Positions 3,401 through 44,548 of a stretch of DNA of 46,804 bases are shown here, in pieces. Under the pieces are notes generated by a model. The model made no database searches, was not told the origin of the DNA, and was given only the letters and a program-made list of their open reading frames with translations. Both the position numbers and the translations under genes were made by a program. The stretch is taken from positions 1 through 46,804 of the forward strand of contig CAJVPJ010000089.1 of the NCBI GenBank assembly GCA_910592205.1. The letters run 5' to 3'. Positions within the stretch are counted from its first letter, which is position 1; the number at the start of each line of letters is the position of its first letter. The stretch comes from Paraglomus occultum (lineage: Eukaryota; Glomeromycota; Glomeromycetes; Paraglomerales; Paraglomeraceae).

Positions 3401-6400
3401 AGTTAAATTGCTAGAACTAAGGAAAGTTTTTCGCAAAGCTGCTGAAGTACTTGGAAAATCTGATGCTCCAGAAGATGAATTGAAAGCAAAAATTAACGAA
3501 CTAGAAACTTTTTTTAAAGATAAAGATAAAAAAGGAAAATCAGAGACTTTCGCTGGTTGAGCCTGAAATAATTATGAGACTATTTCCAAAACCCCAAACA
3601 AAACTAGCGAACTTTTAAACCAGTTAAAAAGCAGAATTTTAGACAATAAAATTTTGGAAATAATCAGTTGCGATACAAATGACAAACTTAATACAGTTAC
3701 ATTGGATAATTTTGTAAAACCAGCCCAAAAGAACAAACTAACTGCTTTAAAAAATTTAGTGAAGTTGATGATTTTGGTTAAAGATGGAGAAACAAACAAA
3801 GATAATAATCAGACAGAACTTCAAAATTGGATTACTCGCTTGCGAGGATTTACGACAGCAGTTGTGAATACCAACCAACAATGAGCAGTAACTGAATGAG
3901 AAAAAGCAAAAGGCTTAGGCTCGCTAGGTGAAGTCTTGACGAGATTAGAAGCCTTGGACGCCTTGGAGATAGAACTGGATAAGAAAGTTGTAGTACCATA
4001 TACTGTTTTTGGTGGACTTGGCGGTGGCGACGGGGAATTAAAAAGTATTCAGGATAATTTATTAGCCCTACAAAAATTAATTCCGCAAGATAATAATGAA
4101 AATGCGGCAGATGGAACTCCTTGCGAAGCAAGGGGGGGGGTGGGGAGTTGCTGACGCATTAAACGCTGCTCAAATTAATGCTTATAAAGTAAAAAAAACA
4201 CGAGTGGATGCTAAAGAGTTAGATTTACTTCGCCAAAGAGCCAAAAAAGTAGATGATAATGGAGTTAAGTGGAATGGAGAGTTAGTGGAGGAAGATCAAA
4301 AACTAATCGACGATGCTGAGAAAAAAGATTTGAAAAAGATTCAGACCAGAATTCGTCTCGAAAGACCCTGAAGAGAGTTCTTCAACAATAATGGAATTAA
4401 TGACTTAGACCAAAGGAAAGCCTGAATAGATAGTAATTTCTCCCCGAAAATACCTTCATCTTGATCTCTTCTGCCTCTTTGCTCAAGTTTAAGTGAAAGT
4501 GAGATAGTTCTGGATAATGGTTGGACTGATTTATTTGCTAATAGCCCAGACAGCGGAATAGGAAAAATTACTAATTGGCGAAGTAAATTAGACAAAAGTT
4601 ATAAGGTTTTTGACTATACTTCGTGAGGCATTACTACAAAAGAAGTTGATGCGGTGGAAGAGGAAAAATTAGAAATCGATAAATATCACTATCAAGCCGC
4701 TTTTAAAGGCTACAGTTCATGGGCCCAAAAACAACATGTCACTAAAATAGAAGAATGAAGAAATAAAAAATATCCTCCGTGGGAAGCCGCCCAGCATTTT
4801 CAAAATGGCTGAGAGGTTAGTGAAGCCGCAGACTTTGATAGTTCAGGACGAGGCACCGCCCAAATCGGTGGAAGCGGCAAATGGCATAATATGACACAGA
4901 AAAAACTGGATGTCAAAAAGCATTTGGTAAGCGAAAAATTGAAATTAACCTTGCAGAATGCTAATCCACCGGTATCGGAAGCCGACATTAAAAAAGAATT
5001 AAGCATTTCCCCCTCCTGGAAAGAGTATATAGAAAATGCATCAGAGATAGACTTAAATGCCCGGGAAATTAAGGTTACCAATGCCATCCAAAAAATAAGG
5101 ACAGAAAAAATTAGTTATCGACAGGCGTTTGTTAATGCTAGTGTCAATCTAACTGATACTATTATTTGGATTTTCTGAGACAAGGGAATAGACTCTAAAA
5201 CGGCCATCCAAGCCAGCCAAGAAGGGGTAAATCCAAGTCATATTAAATCTGATGGCAAAATAAATATTGAAGGCAATGATTATGACTTAAAAAATTCAAA
5301 TTGACTCAGTCAATTAGTTCGCAACCGTGCTATTGCAGCAGAAAACCGGAAATATGACGAGTTGCTAAATAAGATTAAACAGGCCCAAACGGAGGCAGAG
5401 GTAGAGGCAATTGATATCAAGATTGACGAAAACTTGATTACTCCACCCCGCAATAAACAGGAATTAATTGATTCTAAAACAACCAGCAAAAATGAAATTG
5501 CGAAACAAGAGGCGGCAGTTAAGGCTCTGGCAGATGCCAAAGACCAAGCAAAAAGTAAAGACGCAGACGGTAATGATTGAGATCCGCCATTGACTCCTAC
5601 TGAAATTAAGCAAATTGAGGATGCAAAGGACCTGGAGGCACTCAAAGAAGCCCAAATGATAATTAAAAATGCTCGGGAAGAGGAAAAAAATCCTGATCCA
5701 GAAAAAGAAAGTCCAACAACTCCTCCTCAACAACCAACTCCTCCGCCTTCTCCAACTCCGGAAGAAGAAAAGGAAAAATTTGGGGAAGACTATGCCGAAC
5801 TAAAACTAATTCAACAAGAAGGAAGAAAAAAGATTGTGGAAAACTGAAAAAAAGAAGAAAATTATGAACGTAGTAAAACTTGTCGTTATTGCCCGCAAGA
5901 GTTTCATTATGATAAAAGTTTAGAATATTTGCTGGCCAAACAAAAGGCAGAAAAAGAATTGGAAGAACATGAGACCGCTTGCCCTGTCAAGAATAAGACA
6001 GAAGAAGTGAAAAAGATCAAGCAAGAGAACTGAGAAAAGGTTAAAGCGACAACTACTCGTCATTTTTATTCTTGCCGAAAATGTTGAGGTAAAATTGAAT
6101 TAGATAAAGGTATTGCTGATTGAGAAGAAGCCAAAAAACAAGGTCGGGCTGATGTGGCTTACCACGAAGAACACGAATGTGGCAGTGAAGGTTCTAAAAA
6201 GATTGCCATTTACTTCTCTCCAAATCAAGGTGGAAATGGGCATGCCGATTTAACTTATGCCGAAAAGATTAAAGAAAATGAATTAACTTTGGAAAAAGAT
6301 AATCAAGGTGAGATTTATCAGGAGCAAGAAGATAACAATAATAAGGGAACTGATTGAACTCCATGGATAATTGGAGTAGGTGTAATTTTAGCAGCGGGAG

Positions 6401-6450
6401 CGATTATTGCTTGATTGACTAAGAAGAGAAAAAACAAGGAAAAAAAATAA
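324..6450 (+). CDS. Giant coiled-coil protein with C-terminal membrane anchor, interrupted at a G9 tract
   Basis: Reading TGA as Trp, frame 3 is open from 321 to a TAA at 4176. Frame 1 then continues the same kind of protein to TAA at 6448-6450. The switch lies at the G9 tract 4132-4140, where one G fewer would join the halves into about 2,041 residues. As sequenced, the product stops after about 1,284 residues. The protein is rich in Lys, Glu and Trp with long predicted coiled coil and loosely repeated modules (ELELAKALAQ near 2,510; ELDLLRQRAK near 4,225). Near the end come a Pro-rich linker (about 5,710-5,760), two CxxC...H...C zinc-finger-like modules (CRYC about residue 1,853; CRKC about 1,917), one hydrophobic helix (about 2,012-2,031) and a basic tail KKRKNKEKK. 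No signal peptide is seen. ATG 324 is the first Met but overlaps an antisense fragment and has no ribosome site, so the true start is uncertain. The function is unknown; it may be a surface or host-interaction protein. Confidence 0.75.
4132..4140 (+). repeat. G9 homopolymer, candidate phase-variation tract
   Basis: Nine consecutive G within the coding region of the giant gene, followed by T and four more G. With nine G the upstream frame meets TAA at 4176. With eight (or eleven) G it enters the frame that runs on to the membrane anchor at 6448. This is the usual design of a slipped-strand contingency locus. A homopolymer sequencing error would look the same. Confidence 0.8.
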
Positions 6451-6628
6451 TTTTTTAAAAATTAATATTATTACAGAATTACAATCATTAGAAAGGATTG
6501 ATTATTAAGAAGAAAGAGATTTTAAAAAAATACCTCCTAAATTCAGAAAAAAAATTTCCTAATGTCTCTGACTTAGTTAACCAAAATGCTTCAAGAAAAC
6601 TCAAAAAAATATAAACAGTATAAAACTT

Positions 6629-6787
6629 ATGAAAAAAAAGAAATTTGTGTTAGTTCTCATTTCTGGACCTAGCAGGGTCGGAAAGAGTGAAGTGGCAAAA
6701 AGACTATTAACTAATCGAGAGTTAAACATTCAACAAGTGGTTAACACTACTACTCGCTCGCCACGAATTGGATTAAAAGCAGTTTAA
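6629..6787 (+). pseudogene. gmk: Guanylate kinase N-terminal remnant
   Basis: The 52-codon ORF starts with a P-loop (SGPSRVGKSEVAKRLL) and then has TTTRSPR, the order found at the N-terminus of GMP kinase (usual pattern GPSGVGKST ... TTRxPR). Family members are about 200 residues long; this one stops at TAA 6785 before the GMP-binding lid and the rest of the core. It is therefore almost certainly non-functional, unless a frameshift lies at its end. What follows does not clearly continue the kinase. Confidence 0.6.
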
Positions 6788-7627: not shown

Positions 7628-7636
7628 AAAAACTAA

Positions 7637-11978: not shown

Positions 11979-14942
11979 TTATATTCTCGCCTCTTCAATC
12001 AATCTCTCGCTTATTATAAATATGTATACATCCATGAACTCTCAGTCGGGTTCATATTCAGCATATTGTATCAATATTTTTCCTTTGGGAAGAACTTCTT
12101 TAACAACTTCTTCTCTATCAGCTCTTAGTTCATAGTCAGATGACTCTATACACTCTTTGTAATATTTTCTATTCTCTTTTACTGGAAGAATTATTAACTC
12201 CTTTTCTAACTCTTCTTTCCCTCTCTTATTAGTTCAGCCATGATATTTTTGACTGACTCGTAAAAGGGAATTGAGAAACAAACCACGATAAATGTTTAGA
12301 GATGAATAATCTTCTTTTAGCTTTAGTATAGCCACATCGCTATTAACACAAAAGGGTTTATCCTGATAAAAATTTAAACAATCTCCATTAGTAGCAACAG
12401 TTAACATATTTCCTAAATAAGTTTTTGTTGCCGAACGAAAATGAATACCATTATTCTTCGAAGCAGTAGTAATATAGTTATTATCTCCTCACTTAACTTC
12501 TCCCATTTTTAAACAATCTTCTTTTTTAGACTTTTGGACATTAAATATTCTTCCAACTTGGAAGGGTCATCACTTTTTTTTATCTAGATCTGACCACTGA
12601 TTAACTTCATTTTTTAACCTCTCTAATTTTTTGCTTAATTCAGAATAAAATTTATCTTTTTCTTTAATCATTTCTAACTGTGCGGCAATTTGTTTAACTT
12701 GCTCCTTTTTTTCCAATATCTCCTTAATCCTATGAGGTATTTCAGTTTTTACAACTAAATCTTTCCAAACCAATTGCTTTAAAAACTTTAAGTTTTCACC
12801 AATTTTATCACTGGCTTTTAATTCCAAATTATTTTTTTTATTTTTTCACTTGTGAAGCAAATAATTATAGATAACTGTTCACTCATTTGGCTGCTCTTTT
12901 TTTAATTTTTCTTTTTCTTTTGTATTTCCTTTTTCTTCTTCATAGTTTATCCTTAACTTTCGATCTAACACTCCTGCTTTTTCCTCAATTTTATAAAGAA
13001 GAAATTCACTTATTACTTTCTCAAATAGTATTTTTCCTTTACTAGGATTAACAATAAATAGTTCGGTGAAATCCTTTTCAATTTGTTTTTTTTGTTGGTA
13101 ATGAAAACTCCAATCATCCTTGACACTAACATCAGTAACAACCAGAGAGTATTTTGCCTTTTCGTTCTCCTCGTCGTCCTTTAAACCTTTTAGGTATTTT
13201 AAATCTTTTCATAAATCATTCTTTATTTCAATTCATTTCTTGTTTTTATCTTTACGAATTTTTTTAACTAACTTATGACCATCACTGACTAAATTATAAA
13301 AATAAACCTTGTCTCCTTGTTGATGAGAACTTTCAGTTTGAAAGATAACAATTTGAGTAGGAACACTAAGAGGATAAAATAACTGGCTTGGCATTTGGAT
13401 AACAGCCTTGAGAGTATTTTGCTTATAAATTTTTTCTTTGATGTCTTTATTTAATTCAGATTTATTAGTAAAAGTAGAAGTAGGCACAATCATCGCTGCC
13501 CAACCATTTTTCACAAATTTTAATAGTTGTTCGGCAAATTTAATTTCTGGTTGTTTTGGATCAGAGTAAGGGGGATTCATTAAACCAATGCTTGGTTTTT
13601 TAGAAATTTCTTGCTTGACAAGACAATTTCCTTGTTCTAGATTAGCTTTGCCGTCTCCTTGAATTAACATGTTAGCTACAGAAAGAACAAACATCCCCGG
13701 ATGCCTTTCGATACCAATTAAATTTTCCTTAGCTTCTTCTTTGTTATTGTATTCCCTAATCTGATGCTTCATAAAAGCTAGTAAGAAACCTCCTGTTCCT
13801 GCACAAGGATCTAAACAAATATCTTTTTCAACGATTCCTCTTTTTCCCTCCTCAAAATTAGCTTTGAATTTATCAATCAATTCAACCATTAACTCAGTGA
13901 TGTGACAAGGAGTAAGTACAATACCTCTGTCCCCATCTCCCCGTCAATGCTCAAGAAACGCCTGATAAAACTTAGCTGCCAAATCATACCCTTGAAGGGA
14001 TATTATTTCCAATGCTTGATAAACCTTTACAAACACTTTTACTAAAGCAGCACTATTTTCTACTTTATTGATAACTCAAACAATAGAGTCATTTACTGTT
14101 TTTACTTTTTTGTCTCGTTGAGCATCAGAAAGAGACTCCTTTAAAACTCTTATCAGGTCGCTATGTTCTTCTTCTTTGTCAGCTTTGCCTTCTTTTAAAA
14201 AATTACTTTTTATTTCTTGACCTATAATTTCAATTTCCTCATTCTCTAATAGTTCCTCTCCTTTTTGCAATGTTTCTTTATATTTTGAAATTATTCCTCT
14301 TATTTTACTACGAATGTATTTTTCTTTCTTTATTGGTTTGCAAAGAGTAATTAGTGCTCCCGCAACAACCATCGGTTTGTCGTTTCCACCTAATTCTCTT
14401 AATAGTCGACTAGTATCTCGAGCTAAACTAATAATTTTGTTTTCATCCGTCTCTTTATCAACATTGTTTTTTTTAACCACAAATAGATCCAAATATTTTT
14501 CTTTACTTGCCAAGAAGTTTTCCAGACGTTTAACAAGAGTAATTTTCTTTTCTTTAATAGTAAAAGTAGCAATTTTAAAATTGTCTTCCTCACTAATATT
14601 TCCTGAAATAGCTAAGCCAACTACTTTATAATCAATGGATAACTCTTCAAAAAAACTTAAATAATGTTGAATATCTTCAATAGCTTTTTTTTGTTGCGAA
14701 GTTTTCTCTTTAACTTCTACCAGAAACAAAAATTTTTCTTCTTCACTACAATAATAAATATCAAGTTTGCCTAGTTCTCCTGTTTTTGCTTTTGAAGCTT
14801 TAGAAAGGATTTGGCGAATTGATTGATTACTAATGGCTTTAGAATCTTTTGTATTAGGTTTAAATTTTAATAATTCTGCGGAGAAGTTGTGCTTATCTAC
14901 TAAAGCGTTGTAAATTTTTAGAACTTCGCTGTCTTCTGACAT
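11979..14942 (-). CDS. Single-chain restriction-methylation-specificity enzyme (type IIG/BcgI-like)
   Basis: One 987-residue ORF combines three functions. The N-terminus has a PD-(D/E)XK nuclease signature (GKLDIYY with D61, then LVEVKEK with E76 and K78). The middle is an N6-adenine methyltransferase: LTPCHITELMV, SAM motif DPCAGTGGF (378-386) and catalytic NPPY (456-459). A helical spacer rich in Lys/Glu (about 705-785) leads to a target-recognition domain of HsdS type (VGRIFN, NNYITTASKNNGIHF, about 795-920). Cleavage, modification and recognition in one chain is typical of type IIG enzymes. It ends at TAA 11979. No separate hsdR or hsdS is nearby apart from a possible relic at 6781. It lies beside the recombinase, suggesting an acquired defence island. 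Confidence 0.85.
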
Positions 14943-26208: not shown

Positions 26209-26281
26209 AGTAATTTTTAAATTTTTAATTTATTGTTATATTGTAGTTTTATATTTTTTTTGAATCAGGGACTGATTATTA

Positions 26282-26791: not shown

Positions 26792-26799
26792 ATCATTAT

Positions 26800-27537: not shown

Positions 27538-27548
27538 AACTTTTTATT

Positions 27549-28241: not shown

Positions 28242-28282
28242 TTCTTAATCTAGTTTAGACTAATTTCTCTTTATTGTGAGTA

Positions 28283-29293: not shown

Positions 29294-29323
29294 ATCTAAT
29301 ATTTTTTTCTTGTTTGGCAAAAT

Positions 29324-31412: not shown

Positions 31413-32793
31413 ATAAACTATTTAAATAATTTTTTACTTCCTCGCGACCTATTCTTGTCTGTTTCATATTATCCCGCTGGCGGAGAGTAATGGTGTTATC
31501 TTGGACCGTTTGAGTGTCTAAGGTGAGGCAATAATAAGTGCCAATCGCGTCTTGTCGACGATAACTTTTGCCAATATTGTCCGTTTCCTCGTAAGCCACT
31601 GAAAAATTACTGCTTTTTAGCAATTCGCAATACAATTGATAAGCCTGGGTTCGGATTTCTTTTTGTCCCCTTTCTTTACCAACTGGCAAAGGAATAATAG
31701 TGACAAAATAAGGTGCTAATAGTGGTGGTAATTTCAATACTTCTCTTTCGTTGTCTTCGCCACGAGAGTTTTTTACTATTTCTTTCTGATAACTGTCCTC
31801 TAATGTGGCTAACATTAACCTTTCTAAGCCAAAAGAAACCTCAATGACAGTAGGAATAACCCCGTCAATACTGAAATCTTTTCCCGAATATTGACTATGT
31901 TGGGAAAGGTCATAATTACTGCGGTGGCTATTGCTGCATAATTCCCCCCAACCAAAATGATAATTAAAATAAAGGTCCTGTGTCTTTTGGGCATAATGGG
32001 GTAATTCTTCCGGGGCTAAGTTTATTTGCTTAATTTTCTTTTTGTCATTGACGATAACTTGGTTAAGAAAGTCCCAGGCTTTTTTCGTTCAATATTCTCA
32101 CCATTTTTCACTTTCGTTCGGGAGACAAAAAAACTCTAATTCCATTTGCTCGAACTCTCGCGTGCGGAAAATACCGTGATGGAGCGTAATTTCATTGCGA
32201 AAACTTTTGCCGATTTGGCCGATGCCAAAAGGTAGCGGTCGATGGATGCTTCTTTGAATAGCCGAAAAATTGGTGAAAATTCCTTGGCAAGTTTCGGGTC
32301 GCAAATAGACAGTATTTTCTTTTCCGTCCGTAATTTCTAGATTAGTAGTTAGAAGCAAATTAAACTGCCGGGGGGGATGAAAATCATTTTTGCCACAATT
32401 AGAACAATTGTTTTTCAGTGAGTAATTATTTTTGTCCTTTCTTTCCAAAAAAGCAGTAAATTCCCCCGTTGTGATTAAATTATCCAGCCGATATCTTTTG
32501 TGGCATTGGCGACATTCTGCTAATCAATCGTGAAAGTTTTTTAAGTGTCCTGAAGCCTCCAAAACTTGAGGATGAGTAATTATTTGACTATCGCAACTGA
32601 CATTATAAGGGCTAGAAGTGATAAAATACTTTCACCAGAGATTTTTTAAATTCCTTTTTAATTCGGCTCCATAGGGGCCTAAGTCTCACGACTTAGCTAG
32701 ACCCCCATAAACTTCGGCATTAGGAAGTAAAAACCCGCAATGTTTCAGATAATTGGTTATATCTTTTTTTTCGGCTGAACTGCTTTCCGGCAT
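31378..32793 (-). CDS. glyS: Glycyl-tRNA synthetase, homodimeric type
   Basis: This 471-residue class II synthetase charges tRNA-Gly. It shows the start LKHCGFLLPNAEVYGGLAKS, zinc cysteines (CRQCHKRY; CSNCGKNDFH), motif 2 RPETCQGIFTNF, GIGQIGKSFRNEI, REFEQMELEFF, and motif 3 with EVSFGLERLML. The length equals other alpha2-type enzymes. The frame continues past a TGA (Trp) near 31399 to TAA 31378, adding a short tail that overlaps the next gene. It is the first gene of the operon. Confidence 0.95.
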
Positions 32794-32802
32794 TTATATA
32801 AC

Positions 32803-34671
32803 CTATTTTACTTTTGCTTGCTTTCTTCTTCTCACTATCACTATAGCGACTACTGCCAAGACTGCTAGAATAGAAACAGGAACAATTACTTCCGGACGGA
32901 AGAAACCCGTCTCTTGTGTTTTGTTTTGAGAAACATTTTCTAAATCTTTAAGAGCCTTTTCCACTTTGTCTTTTTTTGTTTGATAGGCTTTTTGCTGATA
33001 AGGATTAGTGCTTAATTTCAAACTTCATAAATCCCTTTTTATCTTTTCGAGTTGACTTTTTAGATTACCAGCCGTGGCATTTAATACTTTTTGGGCTTGA
33101 TTCAGCAAGTTATCCGTTTCCACCACTGCTACCTCTTCACTAACTTTTTCGCTAACCTCCTCTTCTACTTGTCTTACCTCAACATCACTAGTATATTCAC
33201 CATTCTTTAACTTATTTAACTTGTCTTGGATTATTTGTCCCAACTTATCAATTTCCACTTTAAACTCATTTATTTTTTTTTCTAATACTTCCGCCATCAT
33301 TTTTCCATAACCTTGAGGGTCATTTTTGGCTAATTCATCTTTTTTTTCAGTAATTTTGGTTTTTTGCTCTTCGCTGATTTTTCCTTCATTTTTTGATTTC
33401 TCAATCTCGGCTAATTTATTTTCTTTTTCCTGATCAGTAGTATTTTTAGAAAGTCCTTGTAGAGCATTAGTTATCTTAGCAGATACTTCTTCATCTTTTT
33501 TAGTCTGGTTCTGTTTAACTTCTTCTTCAACTTTAACTCGCTTTGTTTCGCGAGAGTCATTATCATTGCCGCCATTCTTTCTTTTTTTATTGTTGCCAGA
33601 ATTGTTGGAGTCATTTGTGTCTGGTGAACCACTAGAACCAGGAATTTCTTCGTTTGTTCCGGAATTATCGTTAGTTTTTGTTGGTTGGTTAGTTGAAGAT
33701 GATGGATTTTCAAAGTCATACTTTCATCCTCGTGCTACGGAGATCCAATTGATTTTATCCTTAAATTTTTCAAAAGATTCACCAGTACCATTTCAAACAG
33801 TATATTCATTATAATTATAATGATCACTAAATACTTCTTTTTCTATTTCACTACCGTATTTCGCTATCTTTATTAACTCACTTGCTGCCATCACTGCCTC
33901 ATTAAACTTAGCCAAATCCCCTTCTTTTTCAACTTTATAATCTATTTCGAGTATTTCCTTCCAACTTTTTTTAGCCCTTTGAATAGCCTCATATATTTTA
34001 TTGCTGGCCGCATTCCGCAACTCCTTTTGTACCTCTCATTTTGTTTTTTTTCTGACTCTAGTTGTGCCAACTTCTGCTAAATCCAACTCACTTTCAAAGG
34101 AAGTTATTTTCAACGTTTTATTATGTCCAATATATTCAATTTTTTTACCGGAAAAATTTTTTAAAACATATTCCCCGCCTTCCTTCAAATATTCACTAAG
34201 TTCCTGTATTTGCTCCTCTGAACTTGTTTCGTAAGAATTAGGGCATTTAATCAAAATTAAAGAAATTATTCCTTCTCCTGGACAAATTCACCCTTCAGCA
34301 AAGTTTTTTGGCTCGGCTAAATGTAATCCTATGCTATTTTCATCTGCTCAAAATTTATCATCCTTTTTCCCCAATCTAAAACGTAATTCATTAGGTCATT
34401 CAAAAGTTTCTAATGGAATATTTCCTTGCACTTCAAAAGTTCTATAATTAGAAAAGCCAATATTACGGCTAGATTTCTCTGTCCCTGAATCTAATTCTAT
34501 TTTTACTCACTTATCTTCATATTTACCATAATGTATTCGGTTTCCTCCTTTAACGAATAGGGAATTAATTTCTCTTCCATTATGATTAATCGTTTTAAAT
34601 GGCACAATAAACTCTCCTGAACTCTCATTCCAATTCATTTTTTCTATTTTAGTAATTATTTTTATTGTCAT
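32803..34671 (-). CDS. Tail-anchored coiled-coil protein (622 aa)
   Basis: It starts MTIKIITKIEKMNWNESSGE with no signal peptide. The first 150 residues look beta-rich (FIVPFKTINHNGREINSLFV). A Ser/Asn/Gly/Thr linker of low complexity (about 325-360) leads to basic clusters KKRK (362-365) and KRVK (377-380), then coiled coil, and finally a hydrophobic helix EVIVPVSILAVLAVVAIVIV with tail RRRKQAKVK. The basic clusters resemble a bipartite nuclear-localisation signal, which may be chance. TGA is read as Trp at several sites. It shares the architecture of the genes at 324, 21526 and 24870. Confidence 0.75.
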
Positions 34672-34831
34672 ATTATTATTATATTGATTATTTAAATTTT
34701 TTTATTTTACTTTTTCTATATGTTTTATTTTATAAAGTTTTTGGAATGAAATTGTCATTTTTGCCAAAACCTAACTTGAACTGGCTGAGAAAATTTTTTG
34801 TTTATTCCTTTAATTCTCCTGCTTATTTCTT

Positions 34832-35209
34832 TTATTCATTGTCTTTTTTCTTGGCGAGTTCTCTTTCCAAATAATATAATTTAGCCCGTCGAACTTTTTG
34901 ATTAATTTGCCCAATTTTTTTAATGCCGACAATGAGCGGAGAATGATAAGAATAAGTGCTTCGAATTGCTACTTTATCACTTCCCTTGCTATCCTTTAAC
35001 ACTGAAAAAGTATAACTGATTTGTCCTTTATTTTTTTGAGTAATTACCGTGCCTTTGAAATGGGTTAGCCGATATTTTGACTTTTCATCATTTTTGGCTT
35101 TTTCAGTTTTGTTAAAATTCTTGATAGTAATTTCTACTTTGTCGCCAACTTGTAAGGGAGGTAAATCAGTGCGAAAATATTGTTTGGTTATATCACGAAT
35201 GGTATCCAT
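34832..35209 (-). CDS. rplS: 50S ribosomal protein L19
   Basis: The 125-residue protein has the L19 core: PPLQVGDKVEITIK, FKGTVITQKNKGQISYTFSV, RSTYSYHSPLIVGIKKI, and the end KVRRAKLYYLERELAKK. The segment YHSPLIVGIKKIGQIN corresponds to the usual FPLHSPxIxxIEVxRxG. It lacks the usual trmD or rimM neighbours. The start is preceded by a -10 box only 6 nt away. Confidence 0.92.
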   Translation of the reverse strand: MDTIRDITKQYFRTDLPPLQVGDKVEITIKNFNKTEKAKNDEKSKYRLTHFKGTVITQKNKGQISYTFSVLKDSKGSDKVAIRSTYSYHSPLIVGIKKIGQINQKVRRAKLYYLERELAKKKDNE

Positions 35210-35215
35210 AATTTA

Positions 35216-35221
35216 ATTTTA
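35216..35221 (-). promoter_or_regulatory. -10 box before rplS
   Basis: TAAAAT on the minus strand ends 6 nt before ATG 35209, with no Shine-Dalgarno sequence in between, consistent with a leaderless rplS mRNA. Confidence 0.4.
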
Positions 35222-35249
35222 GGTGGTAGTGATGATAAAAATAATCTAA

Positions 35250-35663
35250 TTATTGTCGTATCTCTTCTAATTGCGACGGTTGAGGAAAAGTTTTTTTAAC
35301 TCGAAAATCAAACATGATATTATCATATAAAGGGATTGGCTTGATTCGCTCTCCTTCTTTTTCTAACTTAATAACTCCCATCGCCACTAAGGATTTCACA
35401 TCTTTATAAACATTGGCATAATCACGGTTTAGTAATTTAGCTAATTGATAAAGGGATTGGGGTTGTTTTTCTACTAAACAAGCAAAAAGTCTTGGTCGCG
35501 GAGAAATAAATTCTTCCGTAATGTCCTTGATATTGGCAAAACTAATTTGATGCAAATGAACGGATGGTTTGCCAGTTCGCACGGCTTTTAGCATTTCTTC
35601 CCCCATTCTTTCTAAGGAAATGGTTGGATCATATTTAAAAATAAAAGTTTTTTCTTTTTTCAT
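35250..35663 (-). CDS. TumA-like winged-HTH antitoxin (HVO_A0114-type)
   Basis: The 137-residue protein has a short N-terminal region (SLERMGEEMLKAVRTGKP) and a winged helix: SPRPRLFACLVEKQPQSLYQ, then LAKLLNRDYANVYKDVKSLV and MGVIKLEKEGERIKP. This is the pattern of MarR-like DNA-binding proteins that accompany TumE toxins. ATG 35663 (MKKEKTF) is preferred over an in-frame upstream codon because the toxin gene ends at 35677. It probably represses its own operon. Confidence 0.65.
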   Translation of the reverse strand: MKKEKTFIFKYDPTISLERMGEEMLKAVRTGKPSVHLHQISFANIKDITEEFISPRPRLFACLVEKQPQSLYQLAKLLNRDYANVYKDVKSLVAMGVIKLEKEGERIKPIPLYDNIMFDFRVKKTFPQPSQLEEIRQ

Positions 35664-35676
35664 AACAACTTGTTTT

Positions 35677-35994
35677 TTAAAAAATATCACCAAATTTCTC
35701 ATAAACCTTTTGGTAAAATAAATCAAGGGCTTGTTCTAATGAAACCCATTCTAAATTTACAATTGGTTCTCGGTCAAGATGATAATGAAATCCTTTTTTT
35801 ATGTTATAGTCAATTAATATTCTTTCTTCTGGATTATCTTTGTTACAAGCAATTCAACCAAATTTTAGTCCATCAGGATATAGATGCCTTTTTGGTTCAG
35901 GAACTAATCAAATATCCATTTCGATAATAATTGTTTTTCCTGAACTGGTGAAAAATTTTCCTTTCTTCCAGTAGATTAAATTTCCTCCATCCAT
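35677..35994 (-). CDS. TumE-like (DUF6516) toxin candidate
   Basis: The 105-residue protein includes KRHLYPDGLKFGWIACNKD, then ERILIDYNIKKGFHYHLDRE and SLEQALDLFYQKVYEKFG. The central strand with D-Y-N, then HYH, and the C-terminal helix fit the TumE family (yDNxxgkghHxH). The gene is first in a two-gene operon with the TumA-like regulator, 13 nt apart, as usual for this system. Two TGA codons encode Trp. A TATAGAT box lies 5 nt before the ATG. Confidence 0.55.
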
Positions 35995-36144
35995 TTAACA
36001 TCTATATTATTATTTTATATGTTTTAAAGAATATAGGTGTTGGTTTTTATTTTTCTTACTATCAAGTCGAATTTCAAGGTCCGGTTATCTACAAAGAATC
36101 TTTGTATAGTATGGTTAGAAAAAAATAAAAAATCTATTAATAAC

Positions 36145-37935
36145 ATGTCTTTTTCTCCTAAATACGATTTTTGCTTAACTGAGAAAAATCCTCAAACAAA
36201 TTATTGGAAGAAAAAAGCAACGGATTCTGCTACTAATTTTGCTGGCACTTTGTTGCTTCCACCTCCTAATATTACTGGTAATTTACATTTAGGACATGCT
36301 TTTGAATCAGTAATTCAAGATTTTTTAGTTCGTTTTTCTCACCTCAATCAGAAGCCAATTTATTGAATTGCCGGAATTGACCACGCTGGAATTTCCACTC
36401 AGAGCAAAGTGGAGAAATTAAATCTTCCTCTCTTAAAAACTGACCAGCAAAAAAGAGAATATACCTTTCAAGTCTGATATCCTCAAACTCGGCAAAATTT
36501 CTATCATCAATGAGAAAAAATGGGCTTATTAATTGACGCTGAAAGAGCCACTTTCACTCTGGACCCAATTATTCAAAAACAAGTGCGGGAAGCCTTTGTC
36601 AGACTTTATCGGGAGGGGTTGATTTATCGGGGCGTGAGATTAATAAATTGAGACCCGAAATTAAAAAGCGTAATTTCGGATATTGAAGTAGAGCACAAGC
36701 CCGCCAAAAGTAAATTATACTATCTAAAATATCCTCTCTGTGATAGTGAAGATCATTTATTGGTTGCTACTAGCCGCCCAGAAACTATTTTTGCGGATGT
36801 GGCCTTGTTTATTAACCCGCACGACCCACGCTATCAAAAATACCTTAACTGCCAAATAAAACATCCTTGGACAGAAAAAATTATCCCAATTTTGGCAGAT
36901 GAAAGTATTAAAATTGATTTTGGCAGCGGAGTTTTAAAATGTACTCCCGCGCATGATTTTACTGATTATGAATTAGGAAAAAAATATCAATTACCAATAA
37001 TTAGTTGTACTAATGAAAAAGGAGTATTAAATGATTTAGCAGGAAAATGAAAGGGGCGAGAAATTAGTAGTATTCGCAAAGAGTTTGTTAAAGAATTAGA
37101 AAAAAAAGGTATCTGTGCTAAAGTTGAAGAATATGAGACCAATTTGGCTTATTCTTCGAAGTCGGGAGTGATAATTGAACCACTTCTTTCTCAACAATGA
37201 TTTTTAGATTTGCCGGCCTTAATTAAGCAAGTAGAAAAAAAACAGCCCAATTTTCTAACCAAAATAAATTTTACCACTAGTCAATTCCGAAAAACTTTAG
37301 AAGAGTGGTGCAATAGGGCTCATGAGTGGTGTATTTCTCGCCAGTTATGGTGAGGACACCAAATCCCTGCTTGATATCATAAAAAAACTGGTGAAATTTA
37401 TGTTGGTGAAAATCCTCCTATTCCCGAAACTGAATGAGAACCTGAAAAAGACGTTTTGGATACTTGATTTTCCAGTGGCTTATGACCGCTGGTTGTTCGG
37501 GCCCAAGAAGGAGAAAAATTTCCTTCACCTCAGCCTAATTGTTATCCGATAACTGCTCTTATTACAGGCTACGATATTCTTTTTTTTTGAGTGCTAAAAA
37601 TGATATTGTTGGGAACTTATTTTACTGGCAAAGTGCCTTTTCAACAAGTATTATTACACGGCCTAATTAGAGACAAATATGGAAAAAAAATGTCAAAATC
37701 ATTAGGTAACGGAGTAGAACCGGACGAATTAATAGAAAAATATGGTTGTGATAGTTTGCGGCTTTTTTTATTAGAGAATAATGTGTGGGGTTCGGATTTG
37801 ATTTACGAGGAAAGCAAAGTGGTTGGCAGTTGACGTTTTTGTCAAAAATTATGAAGTATTAATAATTTGATAACCAGCAAAATCCCAACCACTGAATTAA
37901 GAAAAGTTAATAAGGAAGATTTAAAAACTTTATAA
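36145..37935 (+). CDS. valS: Valyl-tRNA synthetase lacking the anticodon-binding domain
   Basis: This class Ia synthetase charges tRNA-Val. It shows [20 protein letters not shown] (HIGH), the [11 protein letters not shown] motif, the editing-domain signature [31 protein letters not shown] with TGA as the second Trp, and [13 protein letters not shown]. It stops at TAA 37933 after 596 residues, just where the helical anticodon-binding domain begins (GSWRFCQKLWSINNL). Family members have about 870-950 residues, so some 250-300 are missing. I see no continuation downstream in any frame. It is either a truncated copy with a second gene elsewhere or a genuinely minimal enzyme. Confidence 0.85.
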
Positions 37936-38133
37936 ACCATAAAAAACAAAAATATAAAATATTTTCCTAGTCATGAAGAAGCAAATATTGTATTCTTTTG
38001 TGGATGAGAAAGTTCAATGGAAAAATAATCCTTTTTTAGAATTCTCTAAATGACTAGAAAAGCGTAATAAGTAATGAGCAAAATATTAACACTAAAATAA
38101 TATTAATTAAAACAAAAGAAATTAGTTATAGTA

Positions 38134-38529
38134 ATGAGAAATAACAAACTAAAACAATTAAATTTAAATCCTTTAGCAGTAGCCAAATATTTTTACGAAA
38201 AGTTGGGATCAAGAGCGACCGAACAACCTTTTATTCATCCAGTTCTCTATCTAACTTACCGCGAAATACTAAAAAAAGAAAATCTTAGTCTCTTTAAGGA
38301 GGGATTTGAGGACTGAGAGACTACTCCTGTTCTTCCTAGTGTTTATGCTTATTTAGAAAAAAATGAAAAACCACCCTTTCGCCAAATTCCTGACATTACT
38401 AATGAAATAGTTCTTCATCACCTAGAAAATATTTGCCGTCGTTATCAACGCCAATACAAAAACGGAGAACCAGAATTATTTACTTGTGATTTACAGTTTA
38501 AGGCTCAAAGGCTAGCCGGAAATTTGTAA
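38134..38529 (+). CDS. Second Panacea-like antitoxin candidate
   Basis: In this 131-residue protein LNPLAVAKYFYEKLG, then LYLTYREILKKENLSLFKEG and FEDWETTPVLPSVYAYL follow the Panacea/DUF4065 plan (ANYF...KLLYfa...lF..EFEAWxxGPVxPsVY). One TGA is read as Trp at residue 62. The gene lies 3 nt before the next ORF, indicating a coupled pair. It is divergent from the Panacea gene at 7079, so it was probably acquired separately. Confidence 0.55.
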
Positions 38530-38532
38530 TTT

Positions 38533-39009
38533 ATGTTATTTTCTTTTGAGTGGCTAATTACTAAGTGCATTGCTGACCCAACTTTTACTAATCGCTTAGA
38601 AAAAAGTAAAGTTCGTGGTATTCTATGCAGAATACTAAAAAAATTTACTGAATATTCGGCTTATACTTTGGAACAACTAAAAGATAATGACCGACATTTT
38701 CGCTTTATTGCTAATGAAAAACAAAAGAAATTAGTTATTGAAAAAAATAGTAAATATCATTGAGATAGAAAAAATATTAGCTCTTTGTTGAGGGTTAGTC
38801 AAATTTGTCAATTATCTTTGGGTAGTGAGGGAGAACGAGTAATTGGTATTCTTCGAAGAATTAATAATTCCCAGAAAAATCCCGAAAGAGATCATTTATT
38901 TTGACCTTTACACTTAGATTTTGAGCATCTTCTTTATCCTAATCGAAAAAAGAAAGATGTTAGTAAACTTGATTTAGTTTGTATTATGGAAGAAGGAAAT
39001 TGTCATTAA
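38533..39009 (+). CDS. Partner of Panacea-like gene; toxin candidate
   Basis: The 158-residue protein (two TGA-encoded Trp) follows the antitoxin candidate after 3 nt. It starts MLFSFEWLITKCIADPTF, is basic and helical in the middle (FIANEKQKKLVIEKN), and has an H/L-rich part DHLFWPLHLDFEHLLYPN. I do not recognise the family. It is unlike the partner at 7637, as expected for Panacea systems, whose toxins vary. Its role is inferred from position. Confidence 0.4.
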
Positions 39010-39026
39010 ATTTTATCATAAAAATC

Positions 39027-40565
39027 ATGGAAACCAAATCATCTGAAAATATTAAAAAAAAACTTGCTGAAAAAGAGGAAGAATTGAGAGAAATTTGAGA
39101 AGAATTAAGAGCCGAAAGAGAGAAACCAAAAGAGGAAATTATTGAAGAGTTGAAAGGAATTAAGCGCACAACTGGTCAACACCCCGGAGGGCTCCTGATT
39201 ACTTTGCCTAACACGGACATTCAAAAATATACACCCTTGAATTATCCGGCTGATAACCGCCAATCAGAGTGAATGACTACTCATTTTGAATATAGTTTTT
39301 TGTCGGAAATATTTCTCAAAGTTGACATTTTGGGACATGACGAGCCCACTGTCTTACAAAAATTATTTCAATTGACCGGGATTGACCCCACCAAAATCTC
39401 CTTCCAGGACAAAAACATAATGGAAATGTTTACTAATGCTGACACTCTTGGAATACCGGAATTTGGCACCGATTTCGTCAAGAGAAATTTATTAACTCCT
39501 TTAAAACCAACCAAATTTTCCCAGTTGGTTCAAATTTCAGGCTTCTCGCACGGCACTAATGTTTGAACTCAAAATCAACACACCATTTACAAAAATGGTC
39601 AATTGTCTTTGAGTGAATTAATTGCTTGTCGGGAAGATATTTGAAATTTCTTAGTTTCCTGAGGGGTAGATAATAAAAATGCTTTCATTGCCACCGAGTT
39701 CATTCGGAAAGGAAAATGAGAAAAATTATCAGAAGATATTAAAGAGGAAATAAAAAGTAAGTTGAACGATAAAGAAGGTGAATTATATTTTTCCATTCTG
39801 AGTAAAATCAAATACATTTTTCCCAAGCCCCACGCCATTGCTTACACCATGACTGCCTGACGAACTGCTTTCTATAAGGTATACCATCCCCAAGAATTTT
39901 ATTCGGTTCTTTTAACTTACCACACAGACGTTTATGACATTTGATTAATGACCTTAAACCCAGAAACTATTAATTTTCGATTAGAAAGACTCCTAATTAA
40001 TCCTCTTAATTATAAAAATAATGAAAAAGAATTATTATCAATTATTAAAGTTTTCGAGGAACTTAATAAAGAAAAAAGAAGAATGGAAAAGGCAGCCAAA
40101 GGCAAGAAAATTTCCGGAAGTGCTTTAGAAAAAATGGATATTGACAAGATTTTAGAAAGTGTTCGCGAAAAAATAAATAGTTCGGGAGATAAAAACCTAA
40201 TCGAGAGTTTGCAAAAAAATGGTAAAACCTGAAAATTAACCGCCAAAGAAAAACATCTATTATTCACTTTAAAAGTAGTTTTGGAAATGGAAATGAAAGG
40301 CTTGAAATTTGCCCGTGGTTTAGATTTTAATAATTCAGAAATTAAAGATTTTAAAATCGAAAACAATACTATTTATTTTCCTTTTACGGCTATTGCGGGA
40401 ATTGGTGAAAAGTTGGCGGAAAAAATTATTGCTTATCGACAAGAAAAAGGACAAATTACTAATAATTGAAAGGAGGAATTAACTGGAGTATTAAATATTA
40501 ATCATATCCAGCAGTTAGAAAATCTAGAAAAACATAATTTAATAATTAACTTGGAGGCAAAATAA
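39027..40565 (+). CDS. polC: C-terminal part of DNA polymerase III alpha, PolC type
   Basis: From about residue 48 this 512-residue ORF matches the C-terminal third of Gram-positive PolC: KRTTGQHPGGLLITLP, PLNYPADNRQSEWMTTHFEY, KVDILGHDEPTVLQKL, TLGIPEFGTDFV, FSQLVQISGFSHGTNVW, and FPKPHAIAYTMTAWRTAFYK. Full PolC has about 1,440 residues; the OB/exonuclease, PHP and catalytic palm Asp residues are absent here. Instead it begins with about 45 highly charged coiled-coil-like residues (KKLAEKEEELREIWEELRAE) that fuse into KGIKRTTGQ. It starts 17 nt after the toxin candidate. It is either a split polymerase whose other half is elsewhere, or a relic. Confidence 0.85.
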
Positions 40566-40740
40566 ACCCACTATGTATCATAAGGTATTTTCAAAGTTAA
40601 ATCTTGACCTTGTAATTTCTCAAGCACCTTTTCAATAACTCTTCCTAGGAGTCTTTGTTGATGATAATAATTTTTTATTATACTAAAAAGCAATTCTCTA
40701 CTTGGTTAGAGGTTATATAATGGCTAGCATTAAAAAAATC

Positions 40741-40908
40741 TTATCCAACTTTTTCTTTTTTTAGTTCCTCAACTAGCGCTTCAGCATCTTTAAGTAATTT
40801 ATTAATTTCATCAGTTAACTTCTTTTCTTTTTCGATATACTGGCTACGAAGAACCTTTTTTTGCTCAACTTGCTTTAATAAGTCCTCAATTTTTTCTTTT
40901 TTATTCAT
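40741..40908 (-). CDS. Small coiled-coil protein (55 aa)
   Basis: MNKKEKIEDLLKQVEQKKVL, then LTDEINKLLKDAEALVEELK forms one continuous charged heptad-like helix, with no Trp or Cys. Its ATG overlaps the stop of the preceding gene (ATGAATAA), a clear sign of translational coupling. It is the last gene of a four-gene operon. It may oligomerise with the coiled-coil proteins encoded upstream. Confidence 0.6.
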   Translation of the reverse strand: MNKKEKIEDLLKQVEQKKVLRSQYIEKEKKLTDEINKLLKDAEALVEELKKEKVG

Positions 40909-42379
40909 GTTCTATATTATCTATCCGAGCACTATATTTCACTAAAAGAGATTTTATTTCACAATAAAAATTATTAAACATTTCTTTCACTTTTAATTTT
41001 TTTCTCATACTTCTATTTGCCTCAATTTTTTCTTTTATAAGACTTGATTTATTTTTTATATAGACCTGTCATCTCTTTCCTACTCTTAAGTTTCTTTTTT
41101 TTAATAAATCTATAAATCTTCTAGTCCCAAAAAAAGATATCGCTGCTATGGGAACAACTAGGACAAAAACTTTTATTACATTTTTACTGTCGTTTGCTTT
41201 TTGTTCGTCTTGATTAGTAATTGAGTTTCTTTCACTTTCAAGTTCTTTAGTTGCTTCTTTATATAAATACTTATCAATTTGTTCTTCGGTTAACTTCCCA
41301 TTCTTTGCCAGTTCATTTAATTGTTGGTAATAGGCTTTCATTTTTTTAATTTTATCTTCTTTATCACTAGAACTTAAATTATCAAACTCAAAACGTTTAA
41401 TAATTTTAATTATTTCTTCGGGAGATTTAGTAGTAATAAAAGTGTCTAAGTCTTCAATCTGATATTTAGTTTGAATTTCTTGTAAAAATTCAGGATTATC
41501 TTTAATTGGATTAATTAAGTTTTCTACATTCTCTTTAGTGTCAAAGTTGGAAAGAGAGGAGAATTTAGAGAAAATTTGAGGAGAAATTTCGAACTGTTTA
41601 TTTTCTTCGCTTTTAAACCGTTTTCTAATCTCTTCTAACTCTTTTTCCTTCTCTTCAATCTTCTTTTGAATTTCTTCTTGTTGCTGAGGGTTTTTAATTT
41701 TGCTGCTTTTTAATTGTTTTATTTCTTCTTCTAAATTAAGAACTTTTAATTTATTGTTAATTTCTTTAAGCAAATGTCTTTCCGAGTCAAATAAATGAAT
41801 AATTTCTTTTAATTCTTCCAGCGCTTTTTTACAATTTTCTAACTCATGTTTTTCCAAGCCCTCCAACTTTTCTTTTGTGGTTTCTCCTCTTGAAATTATT
41901 AGAGCAATTTGGTGTTGATAAGGCGTTGCCTTGCTTTGAATAGTTTGTAGTTCAGTTTTAGCATCTTGAAGATTATTGTCTAAACTAGTTTCTTTTTCAA
42001 TTTTTTCGAGAATATTAAGTAGCATCATTAATTCACTTCAATTATATTTTTTCTCTTTTTGGTAAATTTTGCAAAAACTATCTTTTAAATCTTTAGTTTC
42101 TTTATTGATTTTTGGGCTTGATTCTTGCCTTTTTCCTTCTTCTTCAACTCGGTTTTTAAATTCTTGTTCTTTTTGCTGAATTTCCTCTTCTTGATTTTTC
42201 TTTTTTGTTTCTTCCTCCTGAGTTTGTTGCTTCTCTTGCTTAATTCTTTGTTCCTCTTCTTTTTTTAATCTTTCTTTTTTTGCTTCGGAGTATTTTTGCC
42301 AAGTGTTGGCAAGACCTTCTAAATAACCAAAATGCTGCTTTTCTTTGATTTCTAACTCTTGTTTATTGCGATGACTCAT
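40901..42379 (-). CDS. Coiled-coil protein with one membrane helix (492 aa)
   Basis: The first 110 residues are an extreme charged helix (KKERLKKEEEQRIKQEKQQT). Further coiled coil follows (IKQLKSSKIKNPQQQEEIQK), with a Phe/Asn-rich globular patch around 250-330. A single hydrophobic helix VIKVFVLVVPIAAISFF lies near residues 399-415, then about 75 basic residues. Two in-frame TGA codons, near 42040 and 41070, split it under the standard code. It starts within the stop of the upstream gene (TAATG). The function is unknown; it may link the membrane to a cytoskeleton-like assembly. Confidence 0.7.
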
Positions 42380-42765
42380 TATGCCATACTCTCAAAAATC
42401 ATAGTCCTTACCAATTTTATCTTTATAGTTAATTGCTCGGGCTTTTCTTTAATCTTTTCAATGACTTGCTCTTTTTCCTTATCAAATCGCTTACCTTCTT
42501 GGATAATAAGGTTTCACAAACTTTCTCCCAGCTCTCCAAGTTGCTTATAACTTTTTATACACTTATTAAGGTGAGTAATATGTCATTCTTTTTCTTCTTC
42601 AGGAGTGCCTCCTCAACATTCACAGTCACCACCATATGGACGAAGATTGCGATAAGGTCTGCCTAAACTATCATTACCCAGTTCTTTTCAATCAATGTTA
42701 GAGCAACTGAGCCTTGCCTCAATTAACTTTAGAAAAGAAATTTTGTCTTTTTCTTTGATTACCAT
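42379..42765 (-). CDS. Hypothetical Cys-containing protein (128 aa)
   Basis: It starts MVIKEKDKISFLKLIEARLS and contains GGDCECWGGTPEEEKEWHI, then THLNKC, a possible zinc site made of two Cys, two His and a Cys. A charged helix (RFDKEKEQVIEKIKEKPEQL) fills the C-terminal half. TGA is read as Trp at four places. It lies 20 nt after the phase-variable gene and shares A with the next ATG (TAATG). No family is recognised. Confidence 0.6.
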
Positions 42766-42785
42766 GATTGTTTGTTTATTATGCT

Positions 42786-43911
42786 TTATTTAATAATAGT
42801 TTGCGAAAGAGTATCTTCTCAAGTATCAAAAAGCTTTTTAAATTCATTTTTAAAACTTATTGCGAAATTATTATCAGAAGAACTTGAATAATCATAAGAA
42901 ATGGTTATTGAAAAAAACATATTTCTCTCATCTGGTGCAAATATTTGCTCAAATGTCTTTTTCTTATCGTAGGGTCTTATTTTTTGTGTTCCTCAGTGAC
43001 TAAAAACTTCTCAAGGATTTTCTCCGCTGGGTCTATAAGTTATTCTTTCCTTTCCAAGAGTATCTTCCAAACTGTTTAACAAAATAGCTAACAATATTTT
43101 CTTCTCACTTGAACCTCAACCATCGTATTTATATTTACCTGTTAATGTAGGATATTCTGCCTGTTTCTCTTTTTTAATATTGCCGTTTTTTTTTTTCGTT
43201 TATATCGACAATATTTGCTTGTAGTCAATCATAAAACCCCCCCCCCCCCCCCCAATCTCGTTTTTTATTTTTTATTTCTTCTAACTCCTTTTGAAATTTT
43301 TCTTTTACTTTTTTTTCTTCTTTAACTAGTTCTTCTTGACAGTTAATTTGTCTCTCCCTCTCATTAATTTCTTCATCTTTTTCTTGGATGGTTTCCTCTA
43401 AATTATTAACTTTTTCTTCTAATTTTGTTTTCTCGCGTTTTAAATCCTCCGCTTCCTTAACTTTTTCCCTCAACTTTTCCAATTCTTCCAATCTTTTCAC
43501 TAATTCCTTTTCTACATTTTTTTCTGATACTGGTTTATCTATAAATACTTCCTCTTCATTATCTATGGTGTAAGCACCACGAATAAGTTTTTTTTCTGAA
43601 ATGTCAAAAGTTAAATAAAGAGGATAAGCGATGTCTTTGCTTTGTGTTATTTCCAAACTTTCCATTAATTCATGAGGAATATCAATTTGAACTCATTCAT
43701 CTTCGTTGTCTTCTAAATAAAATCCGTATCTTTCATAATTAGGTTTATCTTTTCATTTTGTAGTAAACATGTAATTTCTTTCCTCTACTTTTAATTTAAC
43801 ATAATTGCTGGGTATTGGTTGTTTAAACTCTTCCCTGTTTAATATTTCTTGAATATTTACTGTTACTTGATTTATTATTTGCTCTTCTGCGTAAAGTTTT
43901 GTATGTGTCAT
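42786..43911 (-). CDS. Phase-variable coiled-coil protein with C17 and T11 tracts
   Basis: It begins MTHTKLYAEEQIINQVTVNI, has a beta-rich N-terminal part (YPLYLTFDISEKKLIRGAY), then a strong coiled coil (REKVKEAEDLKREKTKLEEK) and a run of Gly from the G17 tract. As sequenced it stops at TAA 43176-43174 after 245 residues. A second coding stretch from 43173 to TAA 42786 (KYDGWGSSEKKILLAILLNS, then YDYSSSSDNNFAISFKNEF) is in another frame with no start of its own. Shortening the A11 tract by one would fuse the two into about 374 residues. It is the first gene of the operon down to 40741. The -10 box TATAAT lies 8 nt upstream of the ATG. The function is unknown. Confidence 0.7.
43186..43196 (-). 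repeat. T11/A11 tract at a frame break
   Basis: Eleven A on the coding strand. The frame before it ends ten bases later at TAA; the frame after it is open for 125 more codons. Ten A would join them. Confidence 0.65.
43237..43253 (-). repeat. C17/G17 tract within the coiled-coil gene
   Basis: Seventeen G on the coding strand, read as part of TGG plus five GGG codons. A length change would move the ribosome to frames that stop within about 35 codons. It is a classic contingency tract. Confidence 0.85.
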
Positions 43912-44422
43912 AGTTTATTATTATATCTAATAATGCATTCACGACCACTAAAAACAATTAAGTTTATTTACAAATAAGAAGTAGTGGTTGATTTAGGGTT
44001 ATTCTTCTTATTAGTTTTTATTCTTTTGACCATAGGCATTTTAATATTTATTTATTACTTATTGGTTTTTTTTAAACAGAACTGATAAACTGTCTTTAAG
44101 TTTAGCAATTTAGAAAGTATTCTATCTGACCTTTCTAGCTTGTTATTGTTTGAAATTTATTTATATATAGATAATGAGTTAATAATTTATTGTTTTATCT
44201 AATCATTTTGTTTATATCTGCTTAAACTAATATAGGGCAGAAAATCAAAACACTAAATACGGCATTTTCAGAATTAATTTCCGCTTTTTAATTAAAATTA
44301 CTTCCATCTAATAAACATTTAACCATATTTTTTGATTTTCTAAAAATTAACTAGCCAAAATTCTACTAAACTCTTTATTTAACAAGAGTTCAAATCACAT
44401 CTCTTATACATGCGACAATACT
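43912..44422. other. Intergenic region with divergent promoters
   Basis: This 511-nt AT-rich gap lies between two divergently transcribed variable genes. TATAAT at 43920-43925 (minus strand) serves the gene starting at 43911. No ORF above 30 codons is convincing and no RNA gene is seen. Confidence 0.5.
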
Positions 44423-44491
44423 ATGTATATAAAAAACTATAATATAGATGATTTAGTAAATGCTTTTTTGTTAGACAAATACGGAAATATT

Positions 44492-44548
<57 letters not shown>

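Follow-up and report, generated by a model that had tools for sequence, protein, structure and literature searches.

The window analysed here is the whole of contig CAJVPJ010000089.1 (C89; 46,804 nucleotides), one of 1,408 contigs in a 32.3-Mb assembly from the fungus Paraglomus occultum (GCA_910592205.1). Five loci in the window carry long simple sequence repeats, here called tracts, inside or just before a gene, and four of these loci encode a protein with a single hydrophobic helix at the C-terminus. All the tracts were confirmed in the sequence at the positions and lengths listed in an earlier note on this DNA. The long open frames of the window appear mainly under genetic code table 4. 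The tracts and the genes to which they belong are listed below.

4132-4140, plus strand: G9, inside a giant gene; as assembled it splits the open frames 324-4178 and 4096-6450
324-6450, plus strand: the giant gene itself, whose two frames together make about 2,040 codons; its product has a single membrane helix at the C-terminus, with the tail LTKKRKNKEKK
24683-24703, minus strand: A21 (T21 on the plus strand), outside the gene 21526-24609 and 73 bases 5' of its ATG
21526-24609, minus strand: 1,027-aa protein, its single membrane helix at the C-terminus followed by the tail VKQKPRKENTN
26181-26204, minus strand: (CA)12 ((TG)12 on the plus strand), beginning one base past the ATG at 26208-26206
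24870-26208, minus strand: J-domain protein (PF00226, E 1.7e-18) with one C-terminal membrane helix
43237-43253, minus strand: G17 (C17 on the plus strand), inside a gene that is coiled-coil-like by eye
43186-43196, minus strand: A11 (T11 on the plus strand); frame 43174-43911 and, downstream, frame 42786-43094 do not share a register
42786-43911, minus strand: the gene with G17 and A11, without membrane helix; register is kept through G17 and shifts at A11
44495-44546, plus strand: (GA)26, in frame, encoding an Arg-Glu linker directly before a membrane helix
44423-44656, plus strand: 77-aa protein with a short head, an (RE)n linker and one C-terminal membrane helix

As assembled, G9 and (TG)12 leave their genes out of frame and (GA)26 is in frame. 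The frames on either side of G9 lie on the same strand, are 1,284 and 784 codons long and have a repeated domain in common (38% over 100 aa). Zinc-finger-like Cys/His clusters were recognised by eye near the end of this giant gene, which has no Pfam match. A homologue search with its first frame scored 7,999 candidates and found none at E 0.001. The 1,027-aa protein also lacks a Pfam match, and a scan for consensus promoters around T21 gave 10 against 7.3 (sd 2.3) expected. In the J-domain protein two paired CxxC clusters were seen by eye. The ATG before (CA)12 gives a short peptide as assembled, and the J-domain frame (418 aa) is open but out of register with it; two database relatives, P0001 and P0002, start with MS and continue into the same J domain without the repeat. 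The J-domain family and the 1,027-aa protein had no match in the viral contigs searched. After (GA)26, the two alternative frames lose the helix (by eye). The description of these products as giants with long coiled coils, given in the earlier note, does not suit the (GA)26 protein, of only 77 residues, and coiled coil was judged without a predictor.

A separate feature of the J-domain gene is that 65 of its bases (25217-25281) are 100% identical to positions 10179-10243 of contig C559, in a host-like stretch without long frames. This match is either a symbiont-to-host insertion or an amplification chimera.

Tract lengths on two contigs

A second contig, C16 (79,418 bp, GC 32.0%), was analysed whole. 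It came up when GA runs of 10 units were searched for and is taken, from its TGA-containing long frames, to come from the same kind of bacterial symbiont as the window. Its tracts (position of the first base on C16) are listed below.

8856: (GA)12, in gene C16:8720-9439, coding for an Arg-Glu linker that is immediately followed by a C-terminal helix (SPWVIGGGIAIVGIIGIIIYFLIKKNKASEEF), a layout like that of (GA)26
18878: (GA)10, in a coiled-coil-like gene that ends 43 nt further on
23787: (GA)8, in an N6/N4 DNA methylase gene (PF01555, E 2.4e-21), 30 nt short of its end
33756: T18 (A18 on the other strand), 65 bases 5' of a gene that is leucine-rich-repeat-like (LRR-like) by eye (32830-33690), without Pfam match
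39830: A19, 25 bases 5' of a gene that is HigA-like by eye (C16:39874-40224)
66929: (CT)12, 217 bases 5' of a gene for a 1,090-aa protein with a C-terminal helix

Both alternative frames of the (GA)12 gene lose the C-terminal anchor. HigA-like genes occur elsewhere too: one, by eye, at C16:63558-63908, and one in the window at 19689-20036, with a weak HTH_37 match under the cut-off (E 0.0049).

Tract loci were defined as A/T runs of at least 14, G/C runs of at least 8 or dinucleotide runs of at least 8 units, which gives 11 loci on the window and C16; A/T runs of 10-11 and one (AAAG)4 were left out, and C17 with T11 was counted as a single locus. Sixty first-order simulations of the window gave expected numbers of 0.55 for A/T runs of at least 14, 0.2 for G/C runs of at least 8 and 0.02 for dinucleotide runs of at least 6 units. 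With window and C16 together (126 kb), each of the long lengths observed was expected 0.0-0.07 times in 30 third-order simulations. For A/T the signal lies in the length of the runs (18, 19 and 21) and not in their number, as 3 runs of at least 14 were seen against about 1.6 expected (third-order Markov). The A/T spectrum runs below the third-order expectation at 9-11, so that T11 by itself is ordinary; it is empty at 12-17 and resumes with 18, 19 and 21. The only G/C runs longer than 7 are those of 9 and 17. Dinucleotide runs are absent at 11-15 nt and then occur at 16, 21, 24, 24, 25 and 53 nt, each expected 0.0 times; the GA array at 44495-44546 was also called by TRF. The long tracts are thus real and beyond chance, and their length spectrum over the two contigs is bimodal. 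An assembly-wide count was dropped as meaningless, since host-like contigs also carry GA runs; runs of G12 or longer number 350 across the assembly.

Low-complexity tracts of this kind might be artefacts of sequencing or assembly. Homopolymers are a classic site of error, and frames break at G9, A11 and (CA)12. However, 10 of the 13 A/T runs of 10-11 on the two contigs (nine of 10 and one of 11) lie within unbroken frames, including RecA and SufS, three of them being weaker witnesses at no more than 70 bases from the frame start; the other three are two intergenic runs and the A11 of the broken gene at 43 kb. This argues against general homopolymer error. Furthermore, a dinucleotide tract of 12 units would be an atypical error, and relatives of the (CA)12 gene are intact. 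On this evidence an artefactual origin of the tracts appears very improbable.

The tracts could also act without any change in the DNA, if RNA polymerase read poly-A or poly-G in several registers and both products were always made. Such transcriptional slippage is known in AT-rich endosymbionts such as Buchnera, and it would be compatible with A11 and G9. PMC2831843 mentions frameshifts at poly-A tracts of Buchnera. The dinucleotide tracts and the A tracts outside genes, making up 9 of the 11 loci, would be left without explanation, and this is the least probable of the explanations weighed here.

Source organism of the window

The bacterial genes of the window include RecA, GlyS, CysS, MnmA, a class-V aminotransferase (SufS-like), a short ValS and a 3' piece of PolC. 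GlyS contains six TGA codons, which were compared with 10 homologues chosen from 120 listed. Two of the codons stand at tryptophan in all 10 homologues, including the three that are not from Mollicutes-related endobacteria (MRE), and a third in 9 of 10; among the rest, two correspond to tryptophan in the seven closest homologues only and one in five. By this alignment the window reads TGA as tryptophan. The identity of GlyS is 74% to the Dentiscutata heterogama endosymbiont DhMRE, 70% and 62% to metagenome-assembled genomes (MAGs) of Candidatus (Ca.) Moeniiplasma, 68% and 63% to GvMRE, and 53-70% to MAGs named Spiroplasmataceae or Mycoplasmataceae bacterium. Among the matches listed the first cultured genus is Spiroplasma, at 47%, and the best match overall reaches 91%.

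MRE and Ca. Moeniiplasma are described as having a GC content of 29-33% and a Xer recombinase, and MRE contigs were found hidden in 19 of 389 fungal assemblies screened (PMC11423566). The GC content of the window is 32.8%, and it encodes a XerC/D-like protein of 184 aa whose scores against the XerC and XerD models fall under their curated cut-offs. Because of its GlyS relatives, GC content and XerC/D-like gene, the window is assigned, on sequence grounds, to an MRE akin to Ca. Moeniiplasma. The surrounding assembly is largely eukaryote-like, with HSP70 matches in exon-like pieces over several contigs and many fetched pieces without long frames. A eukaryotic origin of the window itself is ruled out, despite the exon-split HSP70, by its bacterial RecA, tRNA synthetases and PolC-type polymerase fragment, and Mycoplasma proper is ruled out as the source by the GlyS relatives. 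The earlier note had set the repeats beside Mycoplasma lipoprotein antigens, a frame belonging to animal immunity; this frame is wrong for an organism of the endofungal type of Mollicute. A search of genome contigs for relatives of RecA returned four matches, from three Bacteroidota MAGs and one Aminicenantes MAG, and no Mollicute. The window contains no tRNA and no Rfam match at gathering level.

Several further genes were noted on the contigs. ValS (36037-37935) ends after 632 codons, at model position 594 of 863, and is truncated or broken. The PolC-type DNA polymerase piece (38979-40565) is 528 aa long in its own frame, its best stretch corresponding to model positions 1033-1355 of 1445. 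An Erf-like single-strand annealing protein lies at 26282-26791 (phrog_155, E 9.5e-21), with two genes between it and RecA, and contig C393 repeats 104 bases of its gene, at 95%, at its start. A SNF2-type helicase at 8707-10329 matches the phage helicase family phrog_62 (E 6.3e-80). Finally, 11979-14942 encodes a 987-aa protein with an N6 adenine methylase domain that matches phrog_13671; its match to the antiphage methylase MADS2 is far under the cut-off.

C-terminally anchored proteins among the tract loci

A hydropathy scan of the window found a single C-terminal hydrophobic helix, without N-terminal hydrophobic segment, in the products of 4096-6450, 21526-24609, 24870-26126, 32803-34671 and 44423-44656. 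Four of the five tract loci (G9, T21, TG12 and GA26) are among them, as the earlier note had it, and the gene with C17 and T11 has no helix. The N-terminal hydrophobic segment that a lipoprotein signal peptide would provide is present in none of the four anchored tract loci of the window. Two other genes of the window have a C-terminal helix and no long tract.

32803-34671, minus strand: 622-aa protein with one C-terminal helix
29967-31412, minus strand: protein with a hydrophobic helix at each terminus; its SprT-like match is weak, under the curated cut-off

The C-terminal module of the 622-aa protein is common to the J-domain proteins P0006 and P0007 from JGI (36% over 63 aa), an anchored module with differing heads.

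The tails of the anchored proteins are basic. According to the positive-inside rule, basic tails stay in the cytoplasm. The bulk of these proteins would therefore lie outside the cell rather than adopt the topology of tail-anchored proteins, yet no signal peptide was seen. Two SecY-like frames with in-frame TGA codons are present in the assembly, at C707:6955-7926 (11 codons) and C537:17636-18592 (12 codons). Against these two stands one bacterial-looking rpoB match, on C967, so that there are either two SecY types in one symbiont or two symbionts. Another RNA polymerase match (subunit 2, C743:11683-12705) contains seven in-frame TAA codons and one TGA and may be a decayed copy, interrupted by introns or written in another genetic code.

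Anchored proteins are concerned in 6 of the 11 tract loci, four of the five in the window and two of the six on C16; the other five loci are unrelated to them. Counted by genes, a tract accompanies four of the six anchored genes in the window and two of the six on C16. Anchored genes with their flanks make up 32% of the window and 12% of C16. The enrichment has a length-weighted P of 0.041 in the window alone; for the two contigs combined the length-weighted P is 0.011 and the gene-number P 0.0008, the window having been chosen for this trait. The GA/CT runs of at least 10 units on C16 (three in number) were themselves ascertained, unlike its A18, A19 and GA8. Both anchored loci of C16 are among the three ascertained runs, and the remaining three tracts include none. 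Gene models were made by hand in the window and by a greedy rule on C16, where the LRR-like gene took the place of one spurious frame. The anchored genes counted in the window include 29967-31412 with its additional N-terminal helix. The start 26206 was used in place of 26208, and the ends 32835-33677 in place of 32830-33690 for the LRR-like gene, with counts unaffected. Labels in the enrichment table such as dUTPase, HigB-like and rpl19-like were given by eye.

Anchored proteins are thus probably favoured among the tract loci, within a mixed repertoire. The set is not dedicated to them, as the earlier note had proposed: other tracts lie in or before the coiled-coil-like gene, the DNA methylase, and the LRR-like and HigA-like genes, and there are anchored genes without a tract. 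The arrangement itself recurs on other symbiont contigs. Besides the (GA)12 before the anchor on C16, contig C707 encodes a 592-aa J-domain protein with a C-terminal helix in which (AT)9 abuts the start codon; this gene was found by homology and not by its repeat, the chance tests above having covered the window and C16. Further J-domain genes vary in this respect. The anchored J-domain gene at C16:30981-32825 (PF00226, E 6e-12) has no tract inside, the match on C46 has T14 near its 3' end, and that on C1222 has none in the 3.2 kb examined. No tract was seen by eye in the 700 bases viewed around the match on C853, and nothing beyond T10 lies near the DnaJ of C707.

Proposed repeat slippage and probable contingency loci

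We consider it rather probable that the tracts are contingency (phase-variation) loci of the MRE. This reading is based on the bimodal length spectrum, the position of (CA)12 at an ATG and of G9 between open frames, the GA tracts before anchors, the (AT)9 at the start codon of the anchored J-domain gene on C707, the reduced mismatch repair of the group and the precedent of other Mollicutes. It upholds in part the phase variation proposed in the earlier note, in that the tracts are non-random and several stand where a change of length would alter the product; the idea of a repertoire reserved for one class of protein falls away.

Slipped-strand mispairing is the standard cause of changes in tract length and is helped by missing mismatch repair. 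In the proposed mechanism it would change the number of repeat units during replication. Mismatch repair is reported to be reduced in MRE (PMC10507103), so slippage would probably be little checked. The assembly contains seven MutS_V matches, short pieces on three contigs judged host-like, one of them a 35-residue piece with an in-frame TGA; no clearly bacterial MutS was seen, and its loss from the symbiont is not proven. In coding tracts a change of unit number would shift the reading frame. At (CA)12, beside the start codon, the whole J-domain protein might be turned on or off, and at G9, (GA)12 and (GA)26, in or before the C-terminal part, the membrane anchor might be removed or added. The upstream tracts A21, A18, A19 and (CT)12 would tune expression through leader or promoter. 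The effect of unit number on the product would be clear for (CA)12, G9, (GA)26 and the (GA)12 of C16, and little for (GA)10 and (GA)8. We infer slippage, switching and surface display, with some benefit to the bacterium, and the outcome would be a population mixed in the anchored proteins carried.

The main rival is neutral. Once mismatch repair is lost, tracts past a threshold length would expand and survive only in dispensable accessory genes, such as the anchored and coiled-coil ones, that are becoming pseudogenes. The reduced repair of the group and the lack of a clearly bacterial MutS among the matches suit this explanation. The housekeeping genes in the window (RecA, GlyS, CysS, MnmA and SufS) are spared by the long tracts, expansion beyond a threshold could also yield a bimodal spectrum, and two GA tracts are placed where a shift would do little. 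MRE assemblies are moreover rich in pseudogenes and repeats (PMC11423566), and ValS stops short here. On the other side, the frames flanking the out-of-register tracts are open for hundreds of codons (1,284 and 784 aa at G9; 418 aa at (CA)12), and tracts of middle length are absent. Neutral growth appears unlikely on balance, although it deserves far more weight than artefact or transcriptional slippage.

Several observations tell against contingency loci. The (GA)10 and (GA)8 of C16 lie no more than 45 nt from the stop codon, and a shift there would alter little. All 11 loci are within a gene or at most 220 nt 5' of one, which carries little weight in sequence that is mostly coding. Both contigs were ascertained for repeats, so the counts do not give a symbiont-wide frequency. 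Of the 12 anchored genes on the window and C16, six lack a tract. The tie between repeats and the anchored class, over-represented as it is in the window, is non-significant on C16 taken alone (P 0.14 by length or 0.09 by gene number). Finally, when positions 24650-44640 of the window, with four of its five tract loci, were compared with the rest of the assembly, nine short matches were found and none crossed a tract, simple repeats being skipped and G9 lying outside this range; no second copy of these four loci, and no length variant of any tract, was seen.

Animal mycoplasmas offer well-known cases of phase variation through slippage at repeats, linked there to immune evasion. In the mmyCI mod gene of Mycoplasma mycoides subsp. 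capri, AG12 is the off state and AG10 the on state of a methylase (PMC3498834). The likeness lies in a 12-unit (AG)n in the coding region of a Mollicute that reads TGA as tryptophan, with unit number setting the frame, and C16 carries (GA)8 in an N6/N4 DNA methylase gene (PF01555). The mod gene encodes a type III methylase for which both states were seen, whereas here a single state is known and most tracts belong to or precede genes of other kinds, with the methylase tract of C16 near the 3' end.

In Mycoplasma hyorhinis the vlp surface-protein genes have a poly-A tract in their promoter region, which varies in length and switches transcription (PMC10502178). A21, possibly in a promoter of the 1,027-aa protein gene, may be compared with it. 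The Vlps are lipoproteins with a signal peptide at the N-terminus, whereas the four anchored tract-locus proteins of the window have no N-terminal hydrophobic segment and are anchored at the C-terminus. In GlyS identity (62-74%), GC content, TGA as tryptophan, the Xer-like recombinase and the placement of the contig in a largely eukaryote-like assembly, the window resembles MRE and Ca. Moeniiplasma. The available parts of PMC10507103 and PMC11423566, both on MRE, do not mention simple sequence repeats or phase variation; in PMC10507103 the term 'simple sequence' has 0 occurrences. A literature search for MRE with either, judged from titles and the opening of abstracts, found no report, which is weak evidence, as subscription papers on MRE genomes lay outside the search. 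The best reading is a form of phase variation familiar from Mollicutes, in an endofungal symbiont; no report of it there was found.

A more far-reaching view, which we regard as possible though somewhat short of probable, is that the bacterium, as an obligate fungal endosymbiont in a cytoplasm free of adaptive immunity, maintains a set of phase-variable proteins with a C-terminal anchor, comprising J-domain, zinc-finger and giant ones. Repeats at the start codon would set such proteins on or off, those before the anchor would decide between anchored and free forms, and each cell would show the host a different combination. The role of MRE is still described as unknown (PMC11423566). If the tracts are contingency loci, they would have been kept in an endofungal symbiont with a shrunken genome and no adaptive immunity facing it, and the tract loci would indicate which proteins are in contact with the fungal host.

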